Positions 18,352 through 28,426 of a stretch of DNA of 33,540 nt are shown piece after piece (within the stretch, counting starts at the first letter, position 1; every line of letters starts with the position of its first letter). The notes beneath the pieces were generated by a model that saw only the letters and a list, made by a program, of their open reading frames with translations, searched no databases and was not told the origin of the DNA. Where the stretch lies: positions 1-33,540 of the forward strand of contig JALOQS010000013.1 in the NCBI GenBank assembly GCA_025459355.1, in the 5' to 3' direction. The translations under genes were made by a program, and so were the position numbers. The stretch comes from Pirellula sp. Its GTDB lineage: Bacteria; Planctomycetota; Planctomycetia; Pirellulales; Pirellulaceae.

Positions 18352-19317
18352 CTAGATCGTCTTAAACGTGGTCGATAATCCAGCTTTAATCGTACGAGCT
18401 AAATTAGAAAGCTGTGCCATATTGTCACAGTATGACGAATAGGCAATCCGCTTCCGTAGTCCTTCGTAAATGCCGCCGCCGCCAACAACGAAAACAACGC
18501 CCTTGGGCAGACTTTGGGCAAAGTGAGTGCACTCGGCGACAAAACGCTCTTCGTCGGGTACGTAGGAAACACTTAACCAAAATATCTTGGGCATGTGTTT
18601 GCGAGCCGCAGAAAGCAGGCTAGCAAAAGGCAGGTTATTACCGAGATTAATAGATCTCCAACCGGCTTCTCTAAAGACCATCTCGACCAATAAATTGGGT
18701 AGCTGGTATTGATCGCCACTCGTGGTCCCTCCCATCGCTAATGGAGAGGAGCCCAGCGGATCGGGTAAGAGCCTGCGTAACTCGTGGATGAGCCGCATGC
18801 AAATCTCGCACCCCCGTCGCTCCTGATAAATTTCCATATCCCCGCAAGCCCATGAGTCGCCGATGGATCGGAATGTAGGCCCTACAAGCTGGTCGGCAAC
18901 GGAAACAATTCCATGACCAGCGGCATACCAACGACTCACAATTCTGCGGGCTTCGCCTTCATCCCCGCCTATGACAGCCCGCAAAAAACCCTCGCGCATC
19001 GATGCTTGGGTCGCGGTGTCGAATGGGATGATTTGCAGGCTCGCATCATCTTTCGGCTGAGCAATTGCAATGCTAGCCTCGTCGCGATGAATCGCCGGAG
19101 AGGGTAATGCTGGCTCGGATGCCCCAATGGCGTTCGGATCGATAACCTTGCGGTTCGTCGATTCCAGAAACTCCATGAGTTGTGCCAACGAAATTCGGCG
19201 GTGCCCCCCCAAGGTGCGGTGTGTGCGTATTACCCCACGGTCGCACCATCGTTTCACCGATGACTCGCTTACTTGCAGCGCCTGCGCTATTTGTTTCGGA
19301 GTAAATGTTTCTTCCAA
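18352..19317 (-). CDS. MerR-type HTH regulator with a B12-binding-like domain (LitR/CarH-like, ligand residues lost)
   Basis: 321 residues, TTG start at 19317. Residues 4-52 form a MerR/excisionase-type helix-turn-helix ('TPKQIAQALQVSESSVKRWC', 'TLGGHRRIS'). Residues 100-185 match the helical B12-binding cap, and 190-320 the Rossmann-like cobalamin domain ('AGWRSINLGNNLP', 'VVFVVGGGGIYEGL'). In CarH-type photoreceptors the cap has W-x9-EH and the Rossmann domain DxHxxG. Here the cap keeps Trp156 and Glu166 but the His is Arg167, and the second motif reads D-Q-Y-Q-L-P (202-207), without the lower-ligand His or the Gly. Cobalamin binding of the usual kind is unlikely. It is divergent from a sigma gene, with repeated motifs between them. 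Confidence 0.82.
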   Translation of the reverse strand: MEETFTPKQIAQALQVSESSVKRWCDRGVIRTHRTLGGHRRISLAQLMEFLESTNRKVIDPNAIGASEPALPSPAIHRDEASIAIAQPKDDASLQIIPFDTATQASMREGFLRAVIGGDEGEARRIVSRWYAAGHGIVSVADQLVGPTFRSIGDSWACGDMEIYQERRGCEICMRLIHELRRLLPDPLGSSPLAMGGTTSGDQYQLPNLLVEMVFREAGWRSINLGNNLPFASLLSAARKHMPKIFWLSVSYVPDEERFVAECTHFAQSLPKGVVFVVGGGGIYEGLRKRIAYSSYCDNMAQLSNLARTIKAGLSTTFKTI

Positions 19318-19346
19318 GATTGAAAACCGTCCTAATCGCCCAATCG

Positions 19347-19365
19347 AAATCGTTCAATTCGTTCA
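19347..19365. promoter_or_regulatory. Direct repeat of the A(A/T)TCGTTCA motif at the regulator promoter
   Basis: AAATCGTTCA (19347-19356) and AATTCGTTCA (19356-19365) are consecutive direct repeats with a 9-base period. They overlap or lie just after the predicted transcript start of the MerR/B12-type regulator (about 19363), a classical place for repression. Further copies of the motif lie at the sigma promoter. Confidence 0.55.
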
Positions 19366-19369
19366 CAAC

Positions 19370-19399
19370 AGTATAGGACACAGGATGGGGAAATTTCAA
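19370..19399 (-). promoter_or_regulatory. Predicted promoter of the MerR/B12-type regulator
   Basis: On the minus strand, TTGAAA (19394-19399) and TATACT (19370-19375) each match the sigma-70 consensus at 5 of 6 positions, with an 18-base spacer. The predicted transcript start near 19363 gives a leader of about 45 bases to the TTG at 19317. Confidence 0.55.
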
Positions 19400-19457
19400 G
19401 CCACTATTCATAATTTGAGGAAATCAAAGGGATCTTTTAAAAAGACTAAATTCCCGG

Positions 19458-19487
19458 AATTCGTTCTTGAGGCTCTTGAATCGTTCA
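19458..19487. promoter_or_regulatory. Two copies of the CGTTC motif overlapping the sigma-gene promoter
   Basis: AATTCGTTCT (19458-19467) and GAATCGTTCA (19478-19487) lie in the same orientation, 20 bases apart, about two helical turns. The second overlaps the -35 element and the start of the spacer of the predicted sigma promoter. They match the pair at 19347-19365. Confidence 0.5.
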
Positions 19488-19504
19488 CGATTAGCACCTA
19501 TAAA
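19476..19504 (+). promoter_or_regulatory. Predicted promoter of the sigma factor/TIGR01777 operon
   Basis: TTGAAT (19476-19481, 4 of 6) and TATAAA (19499-19504, 5 of 6) with exactly 17 bases between them. The expected transcript start near 19511 makes the ATG at 19512 an unlikely start and favours the ATG at 19560. Confidence 0.5.
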
Positions 19505-19512
19505 GATCGATA

Positions 19513-19522
19513 TGAACGATTT
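19513..19522 (-). promoter_or_regulatory. Inverted copy of the AAATCGTTCA motif after the sigma transcript start
   Basis: TGAACGATTT on the plus strand is the exact reverse complement of the copy at 19347-19356. It lies just downstream of the predicted transcript start of the sigma gene, within the leader if translation starts at 19560. It is the fifth copy in this intergenic region. Confidence 0.5.
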
Positions 19523-19559
19523 GGACGATTTGTCAGCGGAAACTGGGGTCAAGGAAATC

Positions 19560-20678
19560 ATGGTTGCTCGAGTTGCGAAGAAGCGAGTGTCGAAATCCAG
19601 CAAAACAGTGGCGGCGGAGGTTTCCGCAGCAGACCTGAACCGAGGAGGGCTTAACGAGTCCATGCCGGTTGCGAAAAAAGAACGAGCCAAGAAAAAGGTC
19701 TCGAAAACGTTCAAAGACGCGAAATTAGAGGCGTCATTTGTCAATTTCGTCCAACTATCCTTCCCAGAAGCGAGCGACGAAGCGGACCTGAACCGTAAAG
19801 CAAAGCGGATTGCTTCGACCGAAATCGCGTTTATCGGCAGTCCTGACGCATTCGCTGCTGAAACCGCAGAATCCGAATTTATGGGTGAGCATATTCTCGC
19901 CCAAATGACCGCCGAACCGGCCAAGAAATCGGCCAAGCTTGCGGATCTTCCAGTCCACTTGGCTAGGTTGTGCGAAACCAAACTTTTAACACCGGACGAA
20001 GAGAAGATGCTCTTTTTCCGAATGAACTTCCTCAAATATCGCGCCCTGCAACTGAGAGCTTCGGTTGTCCTCGACAAACCAGATGATTGGCTGCTCCGCC
20101 GAATCGATGCGTTGGTCAAGGCAGCGGACTGGCATCGCGACTGCATCGTGAAGTCGAACATGCGATTGGTGATCTCGATCATCAAAAAGTTCGTTAACCA
20201 ACACAACGGCTTCGACGATCTTTTGAGCGATGGTATTGTTGCAGTATTGCGTGCGGTTGAGAAGTTTGACGTGGCTCTGGGATTCAGGTTTAGCACCTAT
20301 GCGACCCAAGTCGTACGTCGCAACACGTACCGCAAGGTGATGGAAAAGCAAAAGGAACGCCAAAAGAACATCGCCAGCCTGAGCGAAAACGGTTTGGATT
20401 TCAGCGATGATCAGAAATCATCCTCGATGAGTGAAGAGCGATGGCACGCGTTGCGTAACCGTCTCGCGTTGATGCTAGACCACCTGGACCGAAGAGAGAA
20501 GTTTATCATCCGAGCTAGATTTTCCCTCGGCGGACATCGCAAGGTTCAAACGTTGCAACGATTGGCAGATGTTCTAGGTGTTTCGAAAGAGCGAATTCGA
20601 CAATTGGAAAAACGAGCCCTCGATAAGTTGAGAGGCATGACCGAATCTGCGCCGATCCTACCAGACTCCGATATTTAG
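19560..20678 (+). CDS. Sigma-70 family RNA polymerase sigma factor (planctomycete type)
   Basis: 372 residues from the ATG at 19560, chosen because AAGGAA lies just upstream and a promoter is predicted at 19476-19504. Frames extend in phase to an ATG at 19512 and a TTG at 19467. The N-terminal 130 residues are Lys/Ala/Glu-rich with no fold visible. Then 'LTPDEEKMLFFRMNFLKYRA' (a region 1.2-like helix common in planctomycete sigma factors), region 2 'MRLVISIIKKFVNQHNGFDD' to 'EKFDVALGFRFSTYATQVVRRN', and region 4 'LDRREKFIIRARFSLGG' with the HTH 'RLADVLGVSKERIRQLEKRA'. It is larger than ECF factors. Its stop overlaps the GTG start of the next gene, so the two are coupled. Confidence 0.88.
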   Translation: MVARVAKKRVSKSSKTVAAEVSAADLNRGGLNESMPVAKKERAKKKVSKTFKDAKLEASFVNFVQLSFPEASDEADLNRKAKRIASTEIAFIGSPDAFAAETAESEFMGEHILAQMTAEPAKKSAKLADLPVHLARLCETKLLTPDEEKMLFFRMNFLKYRALQLRASVVLDKPDDWLLRRIDALVKAADWHRDCIVKSNMRLVISIIKKFVNQHNGFDDLLSDGIVAVLRAVEKFDVALGFRFSTYATQVVRRNTYRKVMEKQKERQKNIASLSENGLDFSDDQKSSSMSEERWHALRNRLALMLDHLDRREKFIIRARFSLGGHRKVQTLQRLADVLGVSKERIRQLEKRALDKLRGMTESAPILPDSDI

Positions 20679-22078
20679 TGTTTACCAAGACCTCTGAACT
20701 TCCATACAAACAACAGACAGTATTCGATTATCATTCGCGACCCGGAGCTATTGACCGTTTAATCCCTCCGTGGGAGCGAGTTAAGATCTTAAAGCGAAAC
20801 GAATCGCTGCATGTTGGGACGGAAGTTCTTCTGCAACAGTCGCTCGGCTTTCTGAAAATGGAGTGGTTGGCAAAGCATACCGCTTACGACCCTCCGAGCC
20901 ACTTTCAGGACGAGCAAGTAAGAGGTCCGTTTCGCCGGTGGACCCATGATCATATCGTTGAAGCCATCACCGACCGCTCATCTCGGTTGATCGATTCGGT
21001 TCAATATCAACTTCCCTACGGCACAATTGGCCAACTGGGAGCAAGCTGGATTAAAAGGCAGATCACATCGATGTTCGATTATCGACATCGAACGACTCTT
21101 AATGATCTACGTTTCTCGGAGCATATCAATGCGATGGCGTCCGACTCGAAAACCATTCGAATTGGTGTTTCGGGTTCCAGCGGGATGATTGGGCGTCGCG
21201 TATGTGCCATGGCATCGGTATCCGGCATGGAAATCGTGCGAATTGTTCGCCCAGGAAACCGCAGCACCGATGGAGACATTCCCTCGCATGCTGTAGCGAC
21301 GTTTTCCAACGGAAAGTTCTCTAGCCCGGAAGCTGTCGAGGGACTCGATGCGGTCATACATCTCGGTGGGCATGGAATTGCGGACCAGCGCTGGTCGGAA
21401 TCGGTTAAGCAAAAAATTCTCTCCAGCCGAGTTGATAGCACAAACTCACTGGTTAATGGCTTAAGAAGTCTGCAAAGGCCACCCAAAAAATTTGTATGTG
21501 CCTCTGGAATTGGAGCCTACGGTGACCAAGGGGAAGCCATTTGTTCTGACTTACAAGCGGACCAATTCAACAACGGTCAAGATTCTTTTCTGGAACAGGT
21601 GAGTCGTAAATGGGAGGCGGCTGCTTTAGGGTTTTCCGACTGCGGTGCGGTTTGCATCGGACGGTTGGCGATGGCCCTTCATCCGCTTCAGGGTGCTCTT
21701 TCGAAAATGATTCCTTTGTTCCGGCTGGGACTCGGGGGAAAGCTTGGGAGCGGTGATCAGTACTGGAGTTGGATCCATGTTGACGATGCGGCAGGAGCAT
21801 TCCTTCATCTAGCGGTGAATCCCGATAGCTCAGGGATCTATAATTTGGCGTCCCCTGAACCAGTTACGAACACTGTGTTTACAGATGTTTTGTCTCGCAA
21901 GCTGAGGCGTTGGGCAATTCTGCCAGCTCCCAGCTTTGGTCTAAAGTTGATGCTAGGCCAGATGGCTGATGAGCTACTGTTGGCCAGTATCCGAGCATCG
22001 GCAGATCGCCTTGAGAACGAGTCGTTTCCCTTTAGAGCACGATCTTTAGCTGACGCGCTGGATCAAATACTTCCTTAA
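20678..22078 (+). CDS. SRPBCC domain fused to a TIGR01777 (YfcH-type) NAD-dependent epimerase-like oxidoreductase
   Basis: 466 residues, GTG start sharing a base with the sigma-gene TAG (TAGTG). Residues 1-155 are an SRPBCC/cyclase-like ligand-binding domain ('DYHSRPGAIDRLIPPWERVK', 'RWTHDHIVEAI'). Residues 160-466 are an extended SDR with the dinucleotide-binding 'IGVSGSSGMIGRRV', 'DAVIHLGGHGIADQRWSESV', 'FVCASGIGAYGDQGE' and 'WSWIHVDDAAGAFLHL', typical of TIGR01777. The substrate is unknown. TIGR01777 genes occur in light-induced LitR-controlled clusters of proteobacteria; the divergent LitR-like regulator nearby fits this. Confidence 0.87.
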   Translation: MFTKTSELPYKQQTVFDYHSRPGAIDRLIPPWERVKILKRNESLHVGTEVLLQQSLGFLKMEWLAKHTAYDPPSHFQDEQVRGPFRRWTHDHIVEAITDRSSRLIDSVQYQLPYGTIGQLGASWIKRQITSMFDYRHRTTLNDLRFSEHINAMASDSKTIRIGVSGSSGMIGRRVCAMASVSGMEIVRIVRPGNRSTDGDIPSHAVATFSNGKFSSPEAVEGLDAVIHLGGHGIADQRWSESVKQKILSSRVDSTNSLVNGLRSLQRPPKKFVCASGIGAYGDQGEAICSDLQADQFNNGQDSFLEQVSRKWEAAALGFSDCGAVCIGRLAMALHPLQGALSKMIPLFRLGLGGKLGSGDQYWSWIHVDDAAGAFLHLAVNPDSSGIYNLASPEPVTNTVFTDVLSRKLRRWAILPAPSFGLKLMLGQMADELLLASIRASADRLENESFPFRARSLADALDQILP

Positions 22079-22119: not shown

Positions 22120-24105
22120 TTAGAAAATCTCTTGAAACTGTAGCCATCGCTGCAGCTTTTCCAATGCAGGTGAAAGACTGACGTTCTCTTTGTTCAGTTC
22201 AATGTCGTGTTCATAGAAGTTAACGTTGTAGCCGGCTTTCGCAACGATTTCGGAAAGCTCCTTGATCGATGGATCTGTTCCGTTTAGAAAAAATCGCACT
22301 GACTCACCTGGCTCTGGCGATGTTAAACGAATTCTGGAGTTAAGCTTACCATTGCCTACCCACAGGCCTAGGTATTCGCCTGGTTGTTGAACAGCTGTGA
22401 TGATTCCTAAAACGGCTCCGGATGCGATGCCTCCGACGACGACTCGATTTCGATCGATTGAGAAGTTTGTTAGCAAATGACCCTTGGCCCGAGATGCGAT
22501 TTCCATTTCTTCAAAGGTCCATTCTTGTTCATCCGCAGATTGCAACACGACCACAATCCATCGGTTCGCGGCTGCAAATTTTTCCCAATACGTAGACCAT
22601 ACCTTTGGGTCCGCTGGTCCTGCCTCGGAAAACACCAGCAACAATCCGTGCGGTGTCGTGCTTCGGTAGGAATTGGGAACAATCGCAAACGCACGATTTC
22701 TTACGTCCCCCATGGGTATTTGCTGGACAGATGTTTCTGGTGCGGCTTCGTTGGTTTCCACCAAAGGAAAAGCGATTTCAGGCACTACAATTTCTCCGGT
22801 GGGTCGCGACGTCGTATCCACGTTGACCGATTTTTCTTCGCCTGAAGCTTGTTTGATCGTTAAAGCAGCAGGAGATCGAAAATCGTGAAACCAAAGATGC
22901 TGGCGTAGACCTTTCTCCTTGACGAGGGGCAGTCCAGACCATTTCGTAACGATGTCTCCTGGAACAAGCCCGGCCTTATCAGCAGGACTATCTTTTATGA
23001 CGTGTAGGATGCGTTCCGAACTATCGGGCTCCCGTAGCGTGGCGATTCCCAAATACGGTTCTTTGTATTCGGGGAGTTCTTTGGCCATGGTCATCTCGAA
23101 CAATGTTGTGCTTCCGGCGCGATCGACTTCGATAGCGATAGATTGACCCGCATCAATTGGGTTGATGGCGTGCCGAAACTGCATGTAAGTCGCGACCGGT
23201 TTGAGTGATTGAGGTGTGCGACCGACTTTTGTGATTTTGTCCCCCGCCTGCATCCCCGCTTTCGCTGCTGGCCCTCCGGGACTCAAGCCGATTAAGGTAA
23301 TGCCCTCCTTGAATTCATCCTTGCCTTGAGTTCGTACACCGATTTTGCCTGGATAGATATCTGTTCCGGCTTGGAGAGTGGGAAGTCGTTCCAAGATGTC
23401 TTGAATGGGGATCGCAAACCCCACGCCGGAATCATACCACTGCTCGACTTCCCCCTCGGTGGCGATGGCTGGGTTGAGCAGAGTTAGAATCCCCATCGTT
23501 TCCCCCTTGAGATCAACTAGGGGGCCACCGTAGTTTTGCGGCGAGATTTTGCAATCTGTTTGAATGGCCTTATCAAACACGCGACCCATGGCAGAGAGAA
23601 TTCCCACCGAGCGACTCGCGATTCTCACGTCAAATGTTTTGCCCAACGCCAAGGTCCACTGTCCAACTTGCCAGTTCCCGCTAGCGCTTGGAAGAGCGGC
23701 TTTCAACGGTTGGTCTGTCTCGATTTTCAAAAGAGCAATTTCGCGATTATGATCGCGAGCGACCAGCTTAGCTGGCTTGCGATCTCCATTGGGGAGCAGC
23801 ACCGTGATCGACGCAGGCTGTCCGCGAAAATAAAACGTGCTCGAAGCGATCCAGCCATCGGGGGTTAACACCGTTCCCGTCGAAGGCCCGCTGGCTACAG
23901 CTTGGCGATTGACGAACTCTTGCCCGCCGAACGCTTCCACTTGGACGGTATATTCCTGGGCGAAATCACCGGCCGCTTGTAGTGCTTGCTGCTCTAGCTC
24001 GTCGAGAGACTGTGTCGCTTTGGATTCTGAGCTAGATAGGAGTGCGATGCCCGCTATGCAAAAGATCCATTGGGAAATTTTTAAAGTCGAGATAGACGAT
24101 CTCAT
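22120..24105 (-). CDS. Inactive HtrA-like protein with two PDZ domains and an alpha/beta-hydrolase-like C-terminus
   Basis: 661 residues with a signal peptide (about 1-30). Residues 50-245 follow the trypsin-like HtrA fold, but the triad positions are Phe91 (for His, in 'GWIASSTFYF'), Glu122 (for Asp, 'HNREIALLK') and Tyr192 (for Ser, 'SPQNYGGPL'). Two PDZ domains follow (about 253-345 and 348-432). Residues 470-661 resemble an esterase-type alpha/beta hydrolase ('GLLLVFSEAGPADPKVW', 'IDRNRVVVGGIASGAVLG'), but the nucleophile elbow reads G-I-A-S-G with Ala561 at the Ser position. Probably a secreted binding or scaffold protein. It is the last gene of a four-gene operon, 24 bases after the previous stop. 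Confidence 0.8.
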   Translation of the reverse strand: MRSSISTLKISQWIFCIAGIALLSSSESKATQSLDELEQQALQAAGDFAQEYTVQVEAFGGQEFVNRQAVASGPSTGTVLTPDGWIASSTFYFRGQPASITVLLPNGDRKPAKLVARDHNREIALLKIETDQPLKAALPSASGNWQVGQWTLALGKTFDVRIASRSVGILSAMGRVFDKAIQTDCKISPQNYGGPLVDLKGETMGILTLLNPAIATEGEVEQWYDSGVGFAIPIQDILERLPTLQAGTDIYPGKIGVRTQGKDEFKEGITLIGLSPGGPAAKAGMQAGDKITKVGRTPQSLKPVATYMQFRHAINPIDAGQSIAIEVDRAGSTTLFEMTMAKELPEYKEPYLGIATLREPDSSERILHVIKDSPADKAGLVPGDIVTKWSGLPLVKEKGLRQHLWFHDFRSPAALTIKQASGEEKSVNVDTTSRPTGEIVVPEIAFPLVETNEAAPETSVQQIPMGDVRNRAFAIVPNSYRSTTPHGLLLVFSEAGPADPKVWSTYWEKFAAANRWIVVVLQSADEQEWTFEEMEIASRAKGHLLTNFSIDRNRVVVGGIASGAVLGIITAVQQPGEYLGLWVGNGKLNSRIRLTSPEPGESVRFFLNGTDPSIKELSEIVAKAGYNVNFYEHDIELNKENVSLSPALEKLQRWLQFQEIF

Positions 24106-24129
24106 GCCAGAATTCTAGTGATGTAAGAG

Positions 24130-25218
24130 CTACGGTCGAACTTGAATACGAATCAATTCTTGTCCCCGCTGGACTAATAATTCGAAAGAATCCGCTCGGT
24201 TGAGTGAACCAAGAAGTCGTTCAAAATTCTTGCGAGAATCGATTCTTTGATCATTGAGCAAAAGGATGAGATCGTTGGCTTTAAGGCCAGACAGCTCCGC
24301 TAACGATCCTGAACGAACCTCATCGATAAACACAGGGGTTTTGGGCAAAACGTCAGGAATCAGGGTCATGCCTAATTCGTTAAGTTTGTGAGGCTTTTCG
24401 GCGACCGCCAATTCAGTGGTGGGCGAGAAAGCCGCTCCGCTCTTCATCCGCTCCACCGATGCATGAACGACCTCAATTGGTAGTGCATAGTTAACCCAAA
24501 TGCCTGTCGATGCATCGCGACTCTCTTTGCCGATCACTCCGATCAAACCTCCGCGAATGTCAATCAAAGCGCCACCTGTCGCGCCGGGGTTGTTCGTCAT
24601 GACGTCGAGAATATAGACTTTGCCGAGCGACATGTTCTTGGTAGTGCCCCGTTTCTGCGTCAAAGAAGAGATCGCCATGATGACTCCTTTTTGAACGCTG
24701 CAATACTCGTCGCCAGTCGCGATTTTGAAAAGATTGCTCACGGCAAAGACGCGTTGGCCAACCCGAACCGCCGACTTGGGATCGATTTCAAAGCCCTCGA
24801 TTTGCGCATCACTAACTTTCAACAAAGCCAGTTCGATCGATGGATCAAAACTTAGAATCTCTGCATCGAACTTTCGCCCATCGTGAGCCACCACTCTAAG
24901 CTTCGAGACATCCAAGACGGTCGACCAGCTCGTAAGAATTAAACCCTCTTTGCCAATCCAAAAACCACTCTGGTAACTTTCTAGTCCTCGTGCCCCCCCC
25001 GCGCCGAATATCTTGACCATTTTCTGCTGAACACGGTCCACTAAATCATCGTGCTGAACTACGGTCGTTTGACCATCGGAGCCGGGAACCGTTTGGCCGG
25101 GAGCCACCGAGGGAGCGTCTGGTGTCTCCGATGATTTTCCAGCAGTAGAGGGGATGCACAGGGCTGCCCAAAAAAGCATGAACAATCTTGCCGTTCGACT
25201 CCGAATTAGGATTCTCAT
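24130..25218 (-). CDS. Inactive HtrA-like protein with one PDZ domain
   Basis: 362 residues; ATG start at 25218 overlaps the previous stop by 4 bases (ATGA). Signal peptide about 1-28. The protease domain (60-260) aligns with its upstream neighbour, but all three catalytic positions differ: Ser99 for His ('ILTSWST'), Glu129 for Asp ('DPSIELALLK') and Thr214 for Ser ('NPGATGGAL'). A C-terminal PDZ domain covers about 280-360 ('VFIDEVRSGSLAELSGLKAN', 'LILLLNDQRIDSRKNF'). Thr in place of the serine could keep weak activity only if His were present, so a binding role is more likely. Confidence 0.82.
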   Translation of the reverse strand: MRILIRSRTARLFMLFWAALCIPSTAGKSSETPDAPSVAPGQTVPGSDGQTTVVQHDDLVDRVQQKMVKIFGAGGARGLESYQSGFWIGKEGLILTSWSTVLDVSKLRVVAHDGRKFDAEILSFDPSIELALLKVSDAQIEGFEIDPKSAVRVGQRVFAVSNLFKIATGDEYCSVQKGVIMAISSLTQKRGTTKNMSLGKVYILDVMTNNPGATGGALIDIRGGLIGVIGKESRDASTGIWVNYALPIEVVHASVERMKSGAAFSPTTELAVAEKPHKLNELGMTLIPDVLPKTPVFIDEVRSGSLAELSGLKANDLILLLNDQRIDSRKNFERLLGSLNRADSFELLVQRGQELIRIQVRP

Positions 25219-27158
25219 TGCGCAGTCACTCCGCTGGGGTCGACAAGCTTGACGTCCGTTAGTCGCACTAAGGTTTGCAGCTCCAGTCCGAATTGCAATC
25301 GAATCACACTCGGAGCCTTTGGTGTGTTTTCCGTCAAATAGGCGTCAAAGTAGACTTCGGCAGGATCGACTTGATTGTCAGCGAACAACTCGATGAGCCG
25401 AATCGAACCGTTGAGTGGGCTGGTGTACACTAAACAATTGACCTCTCCCGTAGTCAGCTTGATGGTATCGAACAGTTCTTCTGTTCCGACAATTGGGTTT
25501 CGTCCTAGATAAACCGCTTCTCCCATTTTGTCTGGTCCGATCGTATTCCAAAGGTGCCAGATGCGAATCGCCATGCCAATGCAAACATTCGATTTGGAGC
25601 GAATTTGAGGCAACCAGCCTTGGGTGGGATGAAGGGTTTCCGTGTCGTTCCCAATGCGACATAGAATGGAGCTTTCTGACGAGACACCGGAATAGGATTG
25701 GTTTTCAGCGAGGACGGTGCCATCCCAATGAACCGCTTTAGACCCGTCGAAAGGTGCGGAGAAGGTATGGAGCAAATCCACAATTCGTTTCTTTTCGAGT
25801 CGATTAAAGTAATAGTTCGAGAAGCCTCGCTTGATCTCGAACTTGTCGCTGAGTGGATCGACAGTCTCTTTCACTTCTTGTATTTCCTCCACCTCCGCAT
25901 CCTTGCCTTCTGATTTCTCGTTCGGCTTCGGCATGGGCGCTCGCCTTGGTCGAGGATTTTCGCCTTGTACGATTTCTTCAAGCTCACTGGATAAGTGCAA
26001 ACTTGGCAATCGAATGTAGGTGTCCAAAACCCCATCCGCGTTTCGATAGCGAATAGGAATTCGCCAGTTGTCGGGATAGATTCCGACAATATTCTTCAGT
26101 TGGTTCGTTGTGGCGATATCACGATCCCCCACTTTAAGGATTTCGTCACCGTATCGAATACCGCGACGAAACGCGTCGCTCGATTCCAAGATATTCGAGA
26201 CTGTAACTTTGCCCTTGCTGTCGGTCGCGACAGTAAATCCAAGCGTGGCGTGATCAACAACACGACCGGAGCGTAGTTGCCAATAAAAGTTCATGGCCTG
26301 TTTAATGGAAATGGCGTAGCCAACTCCGACGTTAACTCGTCCTCTTTTTTCAAACGAACAGCGTCCGTTGATGCCGATCAATTCTCCGTTCATGTTAAAA
26401 AGTGGACCGCCGGAGTTACCGGGGTTAATGGCTGCATCGGTCTGAATGCAATCGCTATACTCGAGAAAGGTTCCGCTCGGATACTGATACCTTCGTACAC
26501 CACTTACGATCCCGTAGGTGATGGTCGGTTGCAAGTTAGTAGCCAAGACAAACGGATTGCCCGCAGCAAAGCACCAATGCCCTGCACGAACCAAATCGCT
26601 ATCTCCAATGGCAGCGACCGGAAAATCGTCTCGACCGTACATCTTCAAGACCGCTAGGTCTCCGGTGGGATCAATGCCAGCGACGACGCAATCATACATC
26701 TTGCCATCATTGAGCCCGCACTTCATGCGATGACCAAATGGGCTTGAGACGTGAAAGTTTGTAAGCACGTAGCCGTCCGCTGAAATGCAAACGCCCGAGC
26801 CTCCTCCCTCGCCATCTTTGCTATGAACGGCAACGGTGGCGTAGGACGCTCGTTTCATCGCTTCGATCCGCGCACGTTGGGCGGCAAGAACTGTTTCGGG
26901 TGGTATCGGCTGCGATGTTGAAGCATCGATCGCGGCGATACGATTCACCGACTCATCGGATGGGTCGGCGCTCGGTGCTACATTTTGTTCAATGACAACA
27001 GCGGCTTCAGATTGAGGCTGTGACCATGCGGGATTTGCCATGAAAAGCATGGTGACGATTAACACGCAAAGCATTTCGATTGTCGATAGGAATCGCAACA
27101 CCGTGGGCCAAGAACTCTTCGTGGGGACGTGGTGTTTGTCATGGTCAAAAGAAATCAT
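25215..27158 (-). CDS. HtrA/DegP-like serine protease with intact triad and PDZ domain
   Basis: 647 residues from the ATG at 27158, which overlaps the upstream stop as ATGA; a GTG at 27182 is also in frame. Signal anchor about 20-47. The trypsin-like domain has a complete triad: His136 ('VLTNFHVSS'), Asp167 ('DPTGDLAVLK') and Ser249 ('NPGNSGGPLFNMNGELIG'). A PDZ domain covers about 300-380 ('VSNILESSDAFRRGIRYGDE', 'VGDRDIATTNQLK'). An acidic, Lys/Glu-rich linker (about 405-440) leads to a C-terminal region of about 200 residues with no assigned fold. Probably acts in the periplasm on misfolded or specific secreted proteins, with the two inactive relatives as partners. Confidence 0.88.
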   Translation of the reverse strand: MISFDHDKHHVPTKSSWPTVLRFLSTIEMLCVLIVTMLFMANPAWSQPQSEAAVVIEQNVAPSADPSDESVNRIAAIDASTSQPIPPETVLAAQRARIEAMKRASYATVAVHSKDGEGGGSGVCISADGYVLTNFHVSSPFGHRMKCGLNDGKMYDCVVAGIDPTGDLAVLKMYGRDDFPVAAIGDSDLVRAGHWCFAAGNPFVLATNLQPTITYGIVSGVRRYQYPSGTFLEYSDCIQTDAAINPGNSGGPLFNMNGELIGINGRCSFEKRGRVNVGVGYAISIKQAMNFYWQLRSGRVVDHATLGFTVATDSKGKVTVSNILESSDAFRRGIRYGDEILKVGDRDIATTNQLKNIVGIYPDNWRIPIRYRNADGVLDTYIRLPSLHLSSELEEIVQGENPRPRRAPMPKPNEKSEGKDAEVEEIQEVKETVDPLSDKFEIKRGFSNYYFNRLEKKRIVDLLHTFSAPFDGSKAVHWDGTVLAENQSYSGVSSESSILCRIGNDTETLHPTQGWLPQIRSKSNVCIGMAIRIWHLWNTIGPDKMGEAVYLGRNPIVGTEELFDTIKLTTGEVNCLVYTSPLNGSIRLIELFADNQVDPAEVYFDAYLTENTPKAPSVIRLQFGLELQTLVRLTDVKLVDPSGVTAQ

Positions 27159-28426
27159 CGCAGCACTCTTACTTGCTTCCACTGGACTTCCGTTCCTAAA
27201 TTAGATTGGCCGACTACCGAAACCGACAACCTAGTCTTTTTCTCAGGAGCAACTTTGACATTTACGTCCATGGAGTCTTCGGTATCAGCAAGCGTCTTGG
27301 AAAACAGTTTTTCGTCTTCTTGCCATACCTCGATCAGCAGCTCGGAGCGGTAGATCGCGAGCGAGGGGCGTTCCACCGTGCCTTGCAACGTTTGGAATCC
27401 GTCAGGGACTCGGAAGACATAACTTCCTGATGCCGCAAAGAGCAAATTTTGCTCCTCCACAGGTAGCATCGTTTTTTGGGAATCGCGGCTGGTTCGGTAT
27501 TTCAAGTAACGTGGCAACAACGCAGTTTTCGAAGTGCTTAGCGAAAACTCCCATGGGACCGGGGATTGCAGCGAAGCATCCAAGAGGGGGAGTTCAGCGA
27601 CCCATCTCATGTTGGCTGCGGCAAACTGTATCATCGAAACACCATCGGTCGGAACTGTTATCTCGACCCCTGAGCCAATCGTCAGTTTGAAGCCAGAATT
27701 TGTCAGTTCAAGCGACTTGCATTGGAGTGTGGACTTGTTTCGCAATTGCACTTCGACCGCGGGTCCCTTTGAAAGCTTATCCGTTTGAAACCAACTTACT
27801 CCCTTGAGTCGCTCCAAGGGCATTTCCAAGTTTTGATCATCGAAGTCGAAATTGATCTGTTCCGCTTTTGCTTCTCGAATGGTCCCTCCGACTCTGACCA
27901 ACTCCCCAGTCGCTCGAACCACAATTAATGCATCGCTGCTGGCGTCATCGCTCAGTGCATCGTCCCAAGCGGTTTTTTGTGTTTCATCAGTCAGTGGGGT
28001 AAACAGCAGATAACGCAGACTGTTGGTCGGCAAAGCCACTTTTCCGAACACTGCTGACTCGAATTGCCAATTGTTTCCTTTTCCCGTAAAGACGCTTCCA
28101 TAGAGTTTCGATCCATCTCTCAACTCCAACAACCGCTTGTCCAACGCGATTTGATCTCCTGGCCCGTTCGACCCGGTGGCCTCGGGGAAACGTAATGCAG
28201 AGATGGCTGTGGTGGCAAGCGATTCTTTTTTTCCGTCGATCTCAACCACGATCTCCGTGGTCCCAACGGATAGAAGACGGGCATCAAAATTCCGCCCATC
28301 TAAAAGGGAAACGGCGACAGCTTGATTCGCCCCAAAAGCTTCGTTTTCGGCGCGAAAGACGCCAACGACAACGAAGATGGCCAAAAGACCGACCTCAACT
28401 AAACCCCATCGATTCGTTCGATCCAC
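27155..28426 (-). CDS. Secreted or anchored protein with NPCBM-like C-terminus
   Basis: 423 residues from the GTG at 28426, which has GAGGAG (28437-28442) 10 bases upstream. The frame is open further, to 28648, but that part overlaps another gene and has no protein character. A hydrophobic span ('VEVGLLAIFVVVGVF') near residues 11-25 is a signal or anchor. The middle has beta-rich repeats such as 'VAVSLLDGRNFDARLLSV', 'LLELRDGSKLYGSVF' and 'VEVQLRNKSTLQCKSLEL', each shaped like a short barrel unit. The C-terminal 110 residues resemble the NPCBM module of planctomycete secreted proteins ('GSYVFRVPDGFQTLQGTVE', 'ELLIEVWQEDEKLFSK'). First gene of the HtrA-like operon; role unknown. Confidence 0.72.
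   Translation of the reverse strand: MDRTNRWGLVEVGLLAIFVVVGVFRAENEAFGANQAVAVSLLDGRNFDARLLSVGTTEIVVEIDGKKESLATTAISALRFPEATGSNGPGDQIALDKRLLELRDGSKLYGSVFTGKGNNWQFESAVFGKVALPTNSLRYLLFTPLTDETQKTAWDDALSDDASSDALIVVRATGELVRVGGTIREAKAEQINFDFDDQNLEMPLERLKGVSWFQTDKLSKGPAVEVQLRNKSTLQCKSLELTNSGFKLTIGSGVEITVPTDGVSMIQFAAANMRWVAELPLLDASLQSPVPWEFSLSTSKTALLPRYLKYRTSRDSQKTMLPVEEQNLLFAASGSYVFRVPDGFQTLQGTVERPSLAIYRSELLIEVWQEDEKLFSKTLADTEDSMDVNVKVAPEKKTRLSVSVVGQSNLGTEVQWKQVRVLR

Follow-up and report, generated by a model that had tools for sequence, protein, structure and literature searches.

Predicted tandem operator boxes of a B12-domain regulator at a divergent sigma factor operon of Pirellula

The stretch of DNA analysed here, 33,540 nucleotides of Pirellula sp. 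(assembly GCA_025459355.1, contig JALOQS010000013.1; hereafter the window), contains a regulator gene, whose product joins a helix-turn-helix (HTH) to a B12-type domain, and, divergent to it, a sigma factor gene followed by a TIGR01777-family oxidoreductase gene. Several copies of a short box, TGAACGAW, lie between the regulator and sigma genes. On the strength of their arrangement, their conservation and their co-occurrence with the regulator, we consider it very likely that these boxes are the operator of the divergent regulator, which would thereby repress both its own gene and the sigma-TIGR01777 operon. They provide a candidate operator, with exact coordinates and a promoter geometry, for CarH-like regulators with BldC-type HTHs.

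Boxes and promoter geometry in the window

A motif scan of the regulator/sigma intergenic stretch found four exact and two one-mismatch copies of AWTCGTTCA, the word of the preliminary description, whose reverse complement is the box word TGAACGAW used here (Table 1). The preliminary description had counted five copies, of which four are exact and one (19459-19467) carries a mismatch, and had overlooked a sixth (19522-19530). Given this sixth copy, 19513-19530 is a 9-base-pair (bp) tandem pair like that at 19348-19365, and each of these TGAACGAW pairs of 9-bp period reads along the transcript whose predicted start it covers. The pair at 19348-19365 is the sole exact tandem match in its own assembly, as found by a genome search. 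Four of the six exact copies in the window fall inside the 243-bp stretch 19318-19560, with a Poisson probability of 1.9e-9, or 2.6e-7 when multiplied to allow for the number of such stretches; the clustering of the exact copies is therefore beyond chance, as had been proposed. With one mismatch allowed, the count over the whole window is just mildly high (35 versus 23.6 expected, reached by 3 of 100 shuffles), and hence it is the clustering and the conservation that carry the case for the boxes.

The boxes are placed at both transcript starts, as described earlier, in agreement with the promoters predicted here. On the regulator side, the consensus scan gave one site in 400 bp against 0.4 expected, which is weak taken alone. 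The same scan did not list the sigma promoter TTGAAT-17-TATAAA, whose prediction draws its support from conservation: in 20 of the 25 genus loci described below, TATAAM is found 8-11 bp before the tandem (within 24 bp upstream), and in 18 of these 20 a TTG opens the -35 hexamer at a 17-bp spacer. From this geometry, the tandem would span the sigma promoter from about +1 to +18. The third and fourth copies had both been assigned to the -35 region of this promoter; the fourth does overlap the hexamer (TTGAAT, 19476-19481), whereas the third stops 8 bp short of it, on the upstream side.

The same geometry bears on whether the regulator, while owning the boxes, acts mainly as an activator or as a dual regulator, like classical MerR. 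Its HTH belongs to the wider MerR-like superfamily, and the single copies at 19459 and 19479 are near the -35, where activators can bind. However, the tandem with the best conservation is located downstream of the -10, with the 8-11-bp gap seen in 20 of 25 loci, and covers the predicted transcript start, a position at which a bound protein normally prevents initiation. The 17-bp spacer of 18 of the 20 promoters is also unlike that of MerR-activated promoters, which have a long spacer. We thus regard a mainly activating or dual role as unlikely.

The sigma gene probably starts at ATG 19560, with AAGGA upstream, and not at 19512, since the ATG at 19512 runs into the predicted operator and transcript start, and since the orthologues from three genomes (G010, G074 and G136) lack an ATG, GTG or TTG that far upstream. 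Behind the TIGR01777 gene, three consecutive HtrA-like (trypsin/PDZ) genes, judged from their translations alone, occupy 22120-27182 on the minus strand.

Table 1. Coordinates of the module's genes, predicted promoters and boxes in the window
Feature	Position	Strand	Basis or remark
Regulator gene, TTG start, 321 amino acids	18352..19317	-	BldC/CtMerR-like winged HTH, then CarH-type B12-binding helical and Rossmann-type domains; His ligand gone
Box copy	19348-19356	+ (as AWTCGTTCA)	Exact
Box copy	19357-19365	+ (as AWTCGTTCA)	Exact
Tandem 9-bp operator pair (predicted), regulator promoter	19348..19365	-	Reads TGAACGAATTGAACGAT on the minus strand; begins 4 bp past the -10
Predicted regulator promoter TTGAAA-18-TATACT	19370..19399	-	Consensus scan, 10/12 consensus matches
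Box copy, single, just upstream of sigma -35	19459-19467	+	One mismatch (ends in T)
Predicted sigma promoter TTGAAT-17-TATAAA	19476..19504	+	Conservation in genus loci
Box copy, single, overlaps sigma -35	19479-19487	+	Exact
Box copy	19513-19521	- (as AWTCGTTCA)	Exact
Box copy	19522-19530	- (as AWTCGTTCA)	One mismatch; AATCGTCCA
Tandem 9-bp operator pair (predicted), sigma promoter	19513..19530	+	Reads TGAACGATTTGGACGAT; begins 8 bp past the -10, about +1 to +18
Sigma-70-family factor, regions 2 and 4	19560..20678	+	Pfam
TIGR01777-family oxidoreductase, N-terminal SRPBCC-type (Polyketide_cyc) domain	20678..22078	+	Shares one base with the sigma stop codon

Conservation within the genus

The sigma gene is found in 25 of 27 genomes of the genus, and all 25 loci have the TIGR01777 gene and keep the order regulator, sigma, TIGR01777. 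In G210 the contig ends inside the sigma gene, and in G207 (83% complete) neither a regulator nor a sigma orthologue was found, nor an exact tandem. The intergenic stretches of the 25 loci, taken as far as the point where the sigma alignment begins and so including some 5' coding sequence, contain 106 exact copies of TGAACGWW versus 3.9 on average in 60 shuffles (maximum 9), while five control words occur 0 to 9 times in the same set. The rest of these loci has 16 exact copies in 86,940 bases. At least two exact boxes are present in 24 of the 25 loci, G195 having none. Intergenic stretches of 15 other loci of the family likewise contain 51 exact TGAACGWW versus 2.0 by shuffle, and the commonest same-strand spacing between boxes is 9 bp in both sets (23 pairs in the genus, six in the other family loci). 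A canonical CarH with 11-bp sites was considered and rejected, as no same-strand exact pair is spaced at 11 bp in 40 loci and the spacing peaks at 9 bp.

A search of the 27 genus genomes with TGAACGWWNTGAACGWW found the exact tandem 23 times, in 20 genomes, always on the contig of the sigma gene and no more than about 600 bases from the sigma match. The preliminary description had made its reading depend on conservation of the motif between the orthologous genes and on its density elsewhere; the motif is shared by the orthologous genes, and the exact tandem is not scattered in the genus genomes, so that neither observation that would have spoken against the reading was made. Long extra box arrays stand beside the 9-bp tandems at L116 (G189) and also L117 (G177), and in G189 these arrays include four exact boxes spaced 13 bp apart.

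Away from the sigma locus, one-mismatch tandems were looked into at contig C446 only. Here, two inverted-orientation 9-bp pairs (G000:C446:8682-8729, locus L056), the only other tandems with at most one mismatch in the window's own assembly, sit upstream of a chemotaxis receptor gene with a Tll0287-like domain, and two further exact boxes are inside the coding start of this gene. A regulon of exact tandems was rejected, because the own genome has other tandems with at most one mismatch only at C446 and the two closest homologues of the receptor gene (L150 and L151, 40% identical) are without them.

Co-occurrence with the regulator in the family and phylum

The family survey covered 75 genomes, namely 26 of the 27 genus genomes (no regulator was found in G207) and 49 of 126 matching non-genus genomes, which were chosen by hand, mainly from the better-scoring with some weaker ones. 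L021, in which a contig end cuts the regulator, was left out of the spacing, orthologue and 75-genome counts, and L192 and L196, which are at contig ends, out of the last of these; L058-L063 also carry the module, and since some of them at least come from the same genomes they were not counted. Among 30 family loci fetched by the regulator (14 from genus genomes), a divergent sigma gene is present in 29, the other being the truncated L021. An exact box lies upstream of the regulator in 72 of the 75 family genomes and at least two boxes in 65. A 9-bp tandem with at most two mismatches is found in 70 of 75, versus one of 75 for a scrambled tandem and one of 75 inside the regulator gene.

The neighbour of the regulator is a sigma gene in 62 of the 75 loci, a UfaD-like gene in nine, a fasciclin gene in one and an SRPBCC (TIGR01777-like) gene in one, with none recognised in two (G210, where the sigma gene is cut, and G019). 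At the 11 loci where other genes replace sigma, the regulator keeps its boxes in 10: an exact box is present in eight and a tandem in all nine of the UfaD-like loci, and boxes in both the fasciclin and the SRPBCC locus. With its neighbours varying and the boxes remaining beside it, the regulator would be their natural binder. The UfaD-like clusters hold an amine-oxidase-family flavin adenine dinucleotide (FAD) enzyme, DUF1365 and a cyclopropane-synthase-like (CFA) gene. Judged by domains and gene order alone, they resemble the UfaD, UfaO (a DUF1365 protein) and UfaM (a methylase) of furan fatty acid synthesis described in Rhodobacter (PMC7380195). A regulator divergent to such a cluster of furan-fatty-acid type, and not to a sigma operon, was noted at L137, L143, L180, L181, L185-L190 and L197. 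None of the 27 genus genomes gave a UfaD-like protein at E 1e-60 in a search run without a positive control. In G055, another amine-oxidase-family FAD enzyme is encoded convergently, one short gene past TIGR01777.

These loci also bear on the sigma factor as an explanation for the boxes. The genus has the exact tandem only beside the sigma gene, and 62 of the 75 family loci have sigma as the neighbour, which would fit boxes that serve the sigma factor itself, as promoter elements or for its autoregulation. However, the conserved TTG-17-TATAAM promoter is a separate element, beside which the boxes stand as 9-bp tandems that vary in number and occur in both orientations, and the boxes persist without a neighbouring sigma gene at the UfaD-like, fasciclin and SRPBCC loci. 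In seven genomes searched for a sigma factor (G100, G119, G144, G160, G021, G023 and G049), each has one match, of 35-38% identity and in frames of 557-613 amino acids, which is taken to be the housekeeping RpoD, and in G019 the sigma homologue located away from the regulator (L164, 44%), the only such homologue found, has no box. Ownership of the boxes by the sigma factor is therefore highly improbable.

Beyond the family, we surveyed the 29 best-scoring of 71 other phylum genomes with a match. An exact box lies within 500 bp in 13 of these 29 regulator loci from other families and classes (29 boxes in total), while six control words were found at 0 to 2 of the 29 loci, and at L201, L202, L203, L210 and L221 exact boxes are 9 bp apart. 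A third, unlinked protein might still bind the boxes, the regulator being connected to them by neighbourhood only, and the own genome does have a second regulator of similar HTH/B12 layout (contig C262, see below). Against this, the boxes follow the regulator across several kinds of neighbour gene and into other classes of the phylum, and the genome in which no regulator was found, the 83% complete G207, is also without the sigma orthologue and the exact tandem. We see very little likelihood of such a protein, and continue with the regulator as the binder.

Domains and lost ligand of the regulator

The HTH_17 (45.6 bits, cut-off 27), TIGR01764 excisionase-type (39.9, cut-off 28.8) and PF02607 B12-binding helical (31.2, cut-off 23) models all pass in the regulator, and PF02310 B12-binding (23.8, cut-off 32.1), PF00376 MerR (20.6, cut-off 28.2) and the CarH equivalog NF052513 (47.5, cut-off 400) fall below their cut-offs. 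The best stretch against CarH chains, residues 98-241, is outside the HTH. The HTH alone matches three solved sequences, namely CtMerR, 6ama (E 2e-6) and 6amk (E 1e-5), the latter two of which we take to be BldC structures. The 11 chains of 6ama are consistent with the crystal described for BldC (PMC5859096). CtMerR (8jbs/8jbt, E 1.3e-31) is the best solved relative over nearly the full length, and an AlphaFold model of the regulator (mean predicted local distance difference test score 89.7) has its best PDB match in the CtMerR B12 domain (8jbs), with CarH B12 domains matching too.

The B12-binding helical and Rossmann domains by which class I of CarH/LitR is recognised are both present, and the adenosylcobalamin (AdoCbl)/light signature GxxW, EH, GxxH, GxxxP (PMC11796333) is lacking in the regulator family. 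Among 38 family members including that of the window, the cobalt-ligand position is Tyr in 35, Phe in two, Thr in one and His in none; at the other signature positions, W is found in 36, E in 38, ER in place of EH in 37 and P in 37. In the 29 loci of other families and classes, the ligand position is Tyr in 26, with one case each of Ser, Thr and His, and 16 retain EH. The loss of the His appears to be older than the change of EH to ER, as the phylum loci keep EH in 16 of 29 but the His in one. Cys170 is present in 37 of 38 family members and in just nine of the 29, and Arg23 is invariant in both sets (38/38 and 29/29). In the HTH alignment, Arg23 falls where BldC has Arg30, provided that the numbering of the crystallised BldC chain is offset by three residues, as we presume. 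The preliminary description had compared the regulator with the CarH type; with its His ligand lost, its HTH of BldC/CtMerR type and a 9-bp and not an 11-bp period, it is not a canonical CarH.

The closely related orthologue of G105 is 69% identical to the regulator. The regulator at L220 (G322) is the sole one in the phylum set with the whole signature including the His; it has one box and adjoins a TIGR01777-like gene. In more distant phylum members (L211-L229) the EH pair can persist alongside the Tyr, with EH in 16 and Tyr in 26 of the 29 loci surveyed. The window's own genome encodes a second regulator of the same HTH/B12 layout (G000:C262:6530-7354, loci L002 and L003), which has kept the ligand His (GDEMH, as read by eye in the translation), is without a Wx9EH motif and has a chemotaxis-receptor-like frame nearby on the opposite strand.

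Proposed mechanism and points against it

Starting from the observed sequence, geometry, conservation and co-occurrence of the boxes with the regulator, we infer the following course of binding, repression and signalling. Regulator protomers would bind the 9-bp direct repeats head to tail, in a BldC-like manner, with Arg23 placed like Arg30 of BldC. At the sigma promoter one tandem pair would extend from about +1 to +18, and the other would cover the regulator's own transcript start, the extra single copies near the sigma -35 perhaps adding occupancy, and at either promoter the bound regulator would block RNA polymerase. The B12-type domain may read, without the usual His-cobalt bond, a signal that releases the regulator, and the sigma factor would then pass the response on. 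As to the operator with autorepression and sigma/TIGR01777 repression put forward in the preliminary description, regulator-tied boxes are indeed found at both promoters in a repression-like placement, and repression itself is deduced from this geometry.

Several observations weigh against this reading. The regulator is present without an exact box in G195 (a genus genome), G049 and G019, and no tandem is found in G195, G019, G059, G055 and G011; at the phylum level, 16 of the 29 loci have no exact box. The TATAAM geometry is missing in five of 25 genus loci (L100, L101, L102, L104 and L105), and a TATA-linked tandem on the regulator side occurs in just two of 25, the window and L099, the latter with a 17-bp gap and three mismatches. 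Single boxes are common close to the regulator start in the genus loci. Owing to these two of 25 loci, autorepression is less well supported than repression of sigma. With one mismatch allowed, tandems in the 27 genomes number 141 versus 85 for a reversed control; beyond the locus this signal is close to background, and weak further targets are possible. The BldC model NF033787 scores 43.1 bits, below its NCBIfam cut-off of 77.

The signal context may be light or singlet-oxygen damage, to which the UfaD-like, DUF1365, CFA, SRPBCC and fasciclin genes that replace the sigma operon in relatives point, as do the roles of CarH, CarA and class II LitR; for the own genome this setting is carried over from these cases. 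Depending on the relative, this one operator word seems to govern either stress enzymes directly or a sigma factor. Our data also suggest a regulator that lost the B12 ligand but retained its fold, HTH and operator, which raises the question of what the domain senses now. We tentatively suggest, as a possibility short of even odds, a phylum-wide class of planctomycete repressors that combine BldC-type DNA binding with a B12-fold sensor having a conserved Tyr in place of the cobalt ligand. They would read another signal (another tetrapyrrole, redox via Cys170, or a partner protein) and control photo-oxidative lipid genes directly or via a dedicated sigma factor, with the operator word kept.

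Comparison with known systems

In the open-licence texts of PubMed Central, we found no reported binding site for CarH-like regulators with BldC-type HTHs and no paper linking a planctomycete CarH/MerR to a sigma factor, only an unrelated paper for TIGR01777 tied to light and sigma, and nothing on the module in the Rhodopirellula literature by title or abstract start.

CarH-like repressors that are B12-independent and relieved by a partner protein are described for CarA (PMC9304148) and class II LitR (PMC9758184), and the light-induced genes of the P. putida class II LitR system include PhrB and UfaM (PMC9758184). The operators given for CarA differ from the TGAACGAW boxes (PMC9304148). The class II LitR operator is TGTACA-N12-TGTACA, and class II LitR is described with the helical domain only, whereas the regulators here keep both domains (PMC9758184). 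CarH of Thermus, Bacillus and myxobacteria shares with the regulator the B12-domain architecture and tandem direct repeats overlapping the promoter, together with repression, predicted in our case; it differs in its 11-bp sites nnnnTnnACAn, another HTH and its dependence on AdoCbl (PMC9304148).

CtMerR of Chloracidobacterium thermophilum has the same type of HTH fused to a B12 domain. Unlike the family described here, which is without the His ligand, it retains the light signature and binds AdoCbl (PMC11796333). The paper on it mentions an alternative DNA-binding site and nowhere uses the word "operator" (PMC11796333). BldC of Streptomyces is alike in the sequence of its HTH and in the 9-bp direct repeats, here as a sequence pattern, and is described as a protein of 68 residues without a sensor domain, unlike the 321-residue regulator with its sensor-type domain (PMC5859096). 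BldC binds its 9-bp direct repeats head to tail, with the consensus AATTXXXX(C) (PMC5859096). The second repeat in the window, read in the BldC register, is AATTCGTTC, which fits this consensus and is one base off the BldC smeA repeat AATTCGGTC (PMC5859096).

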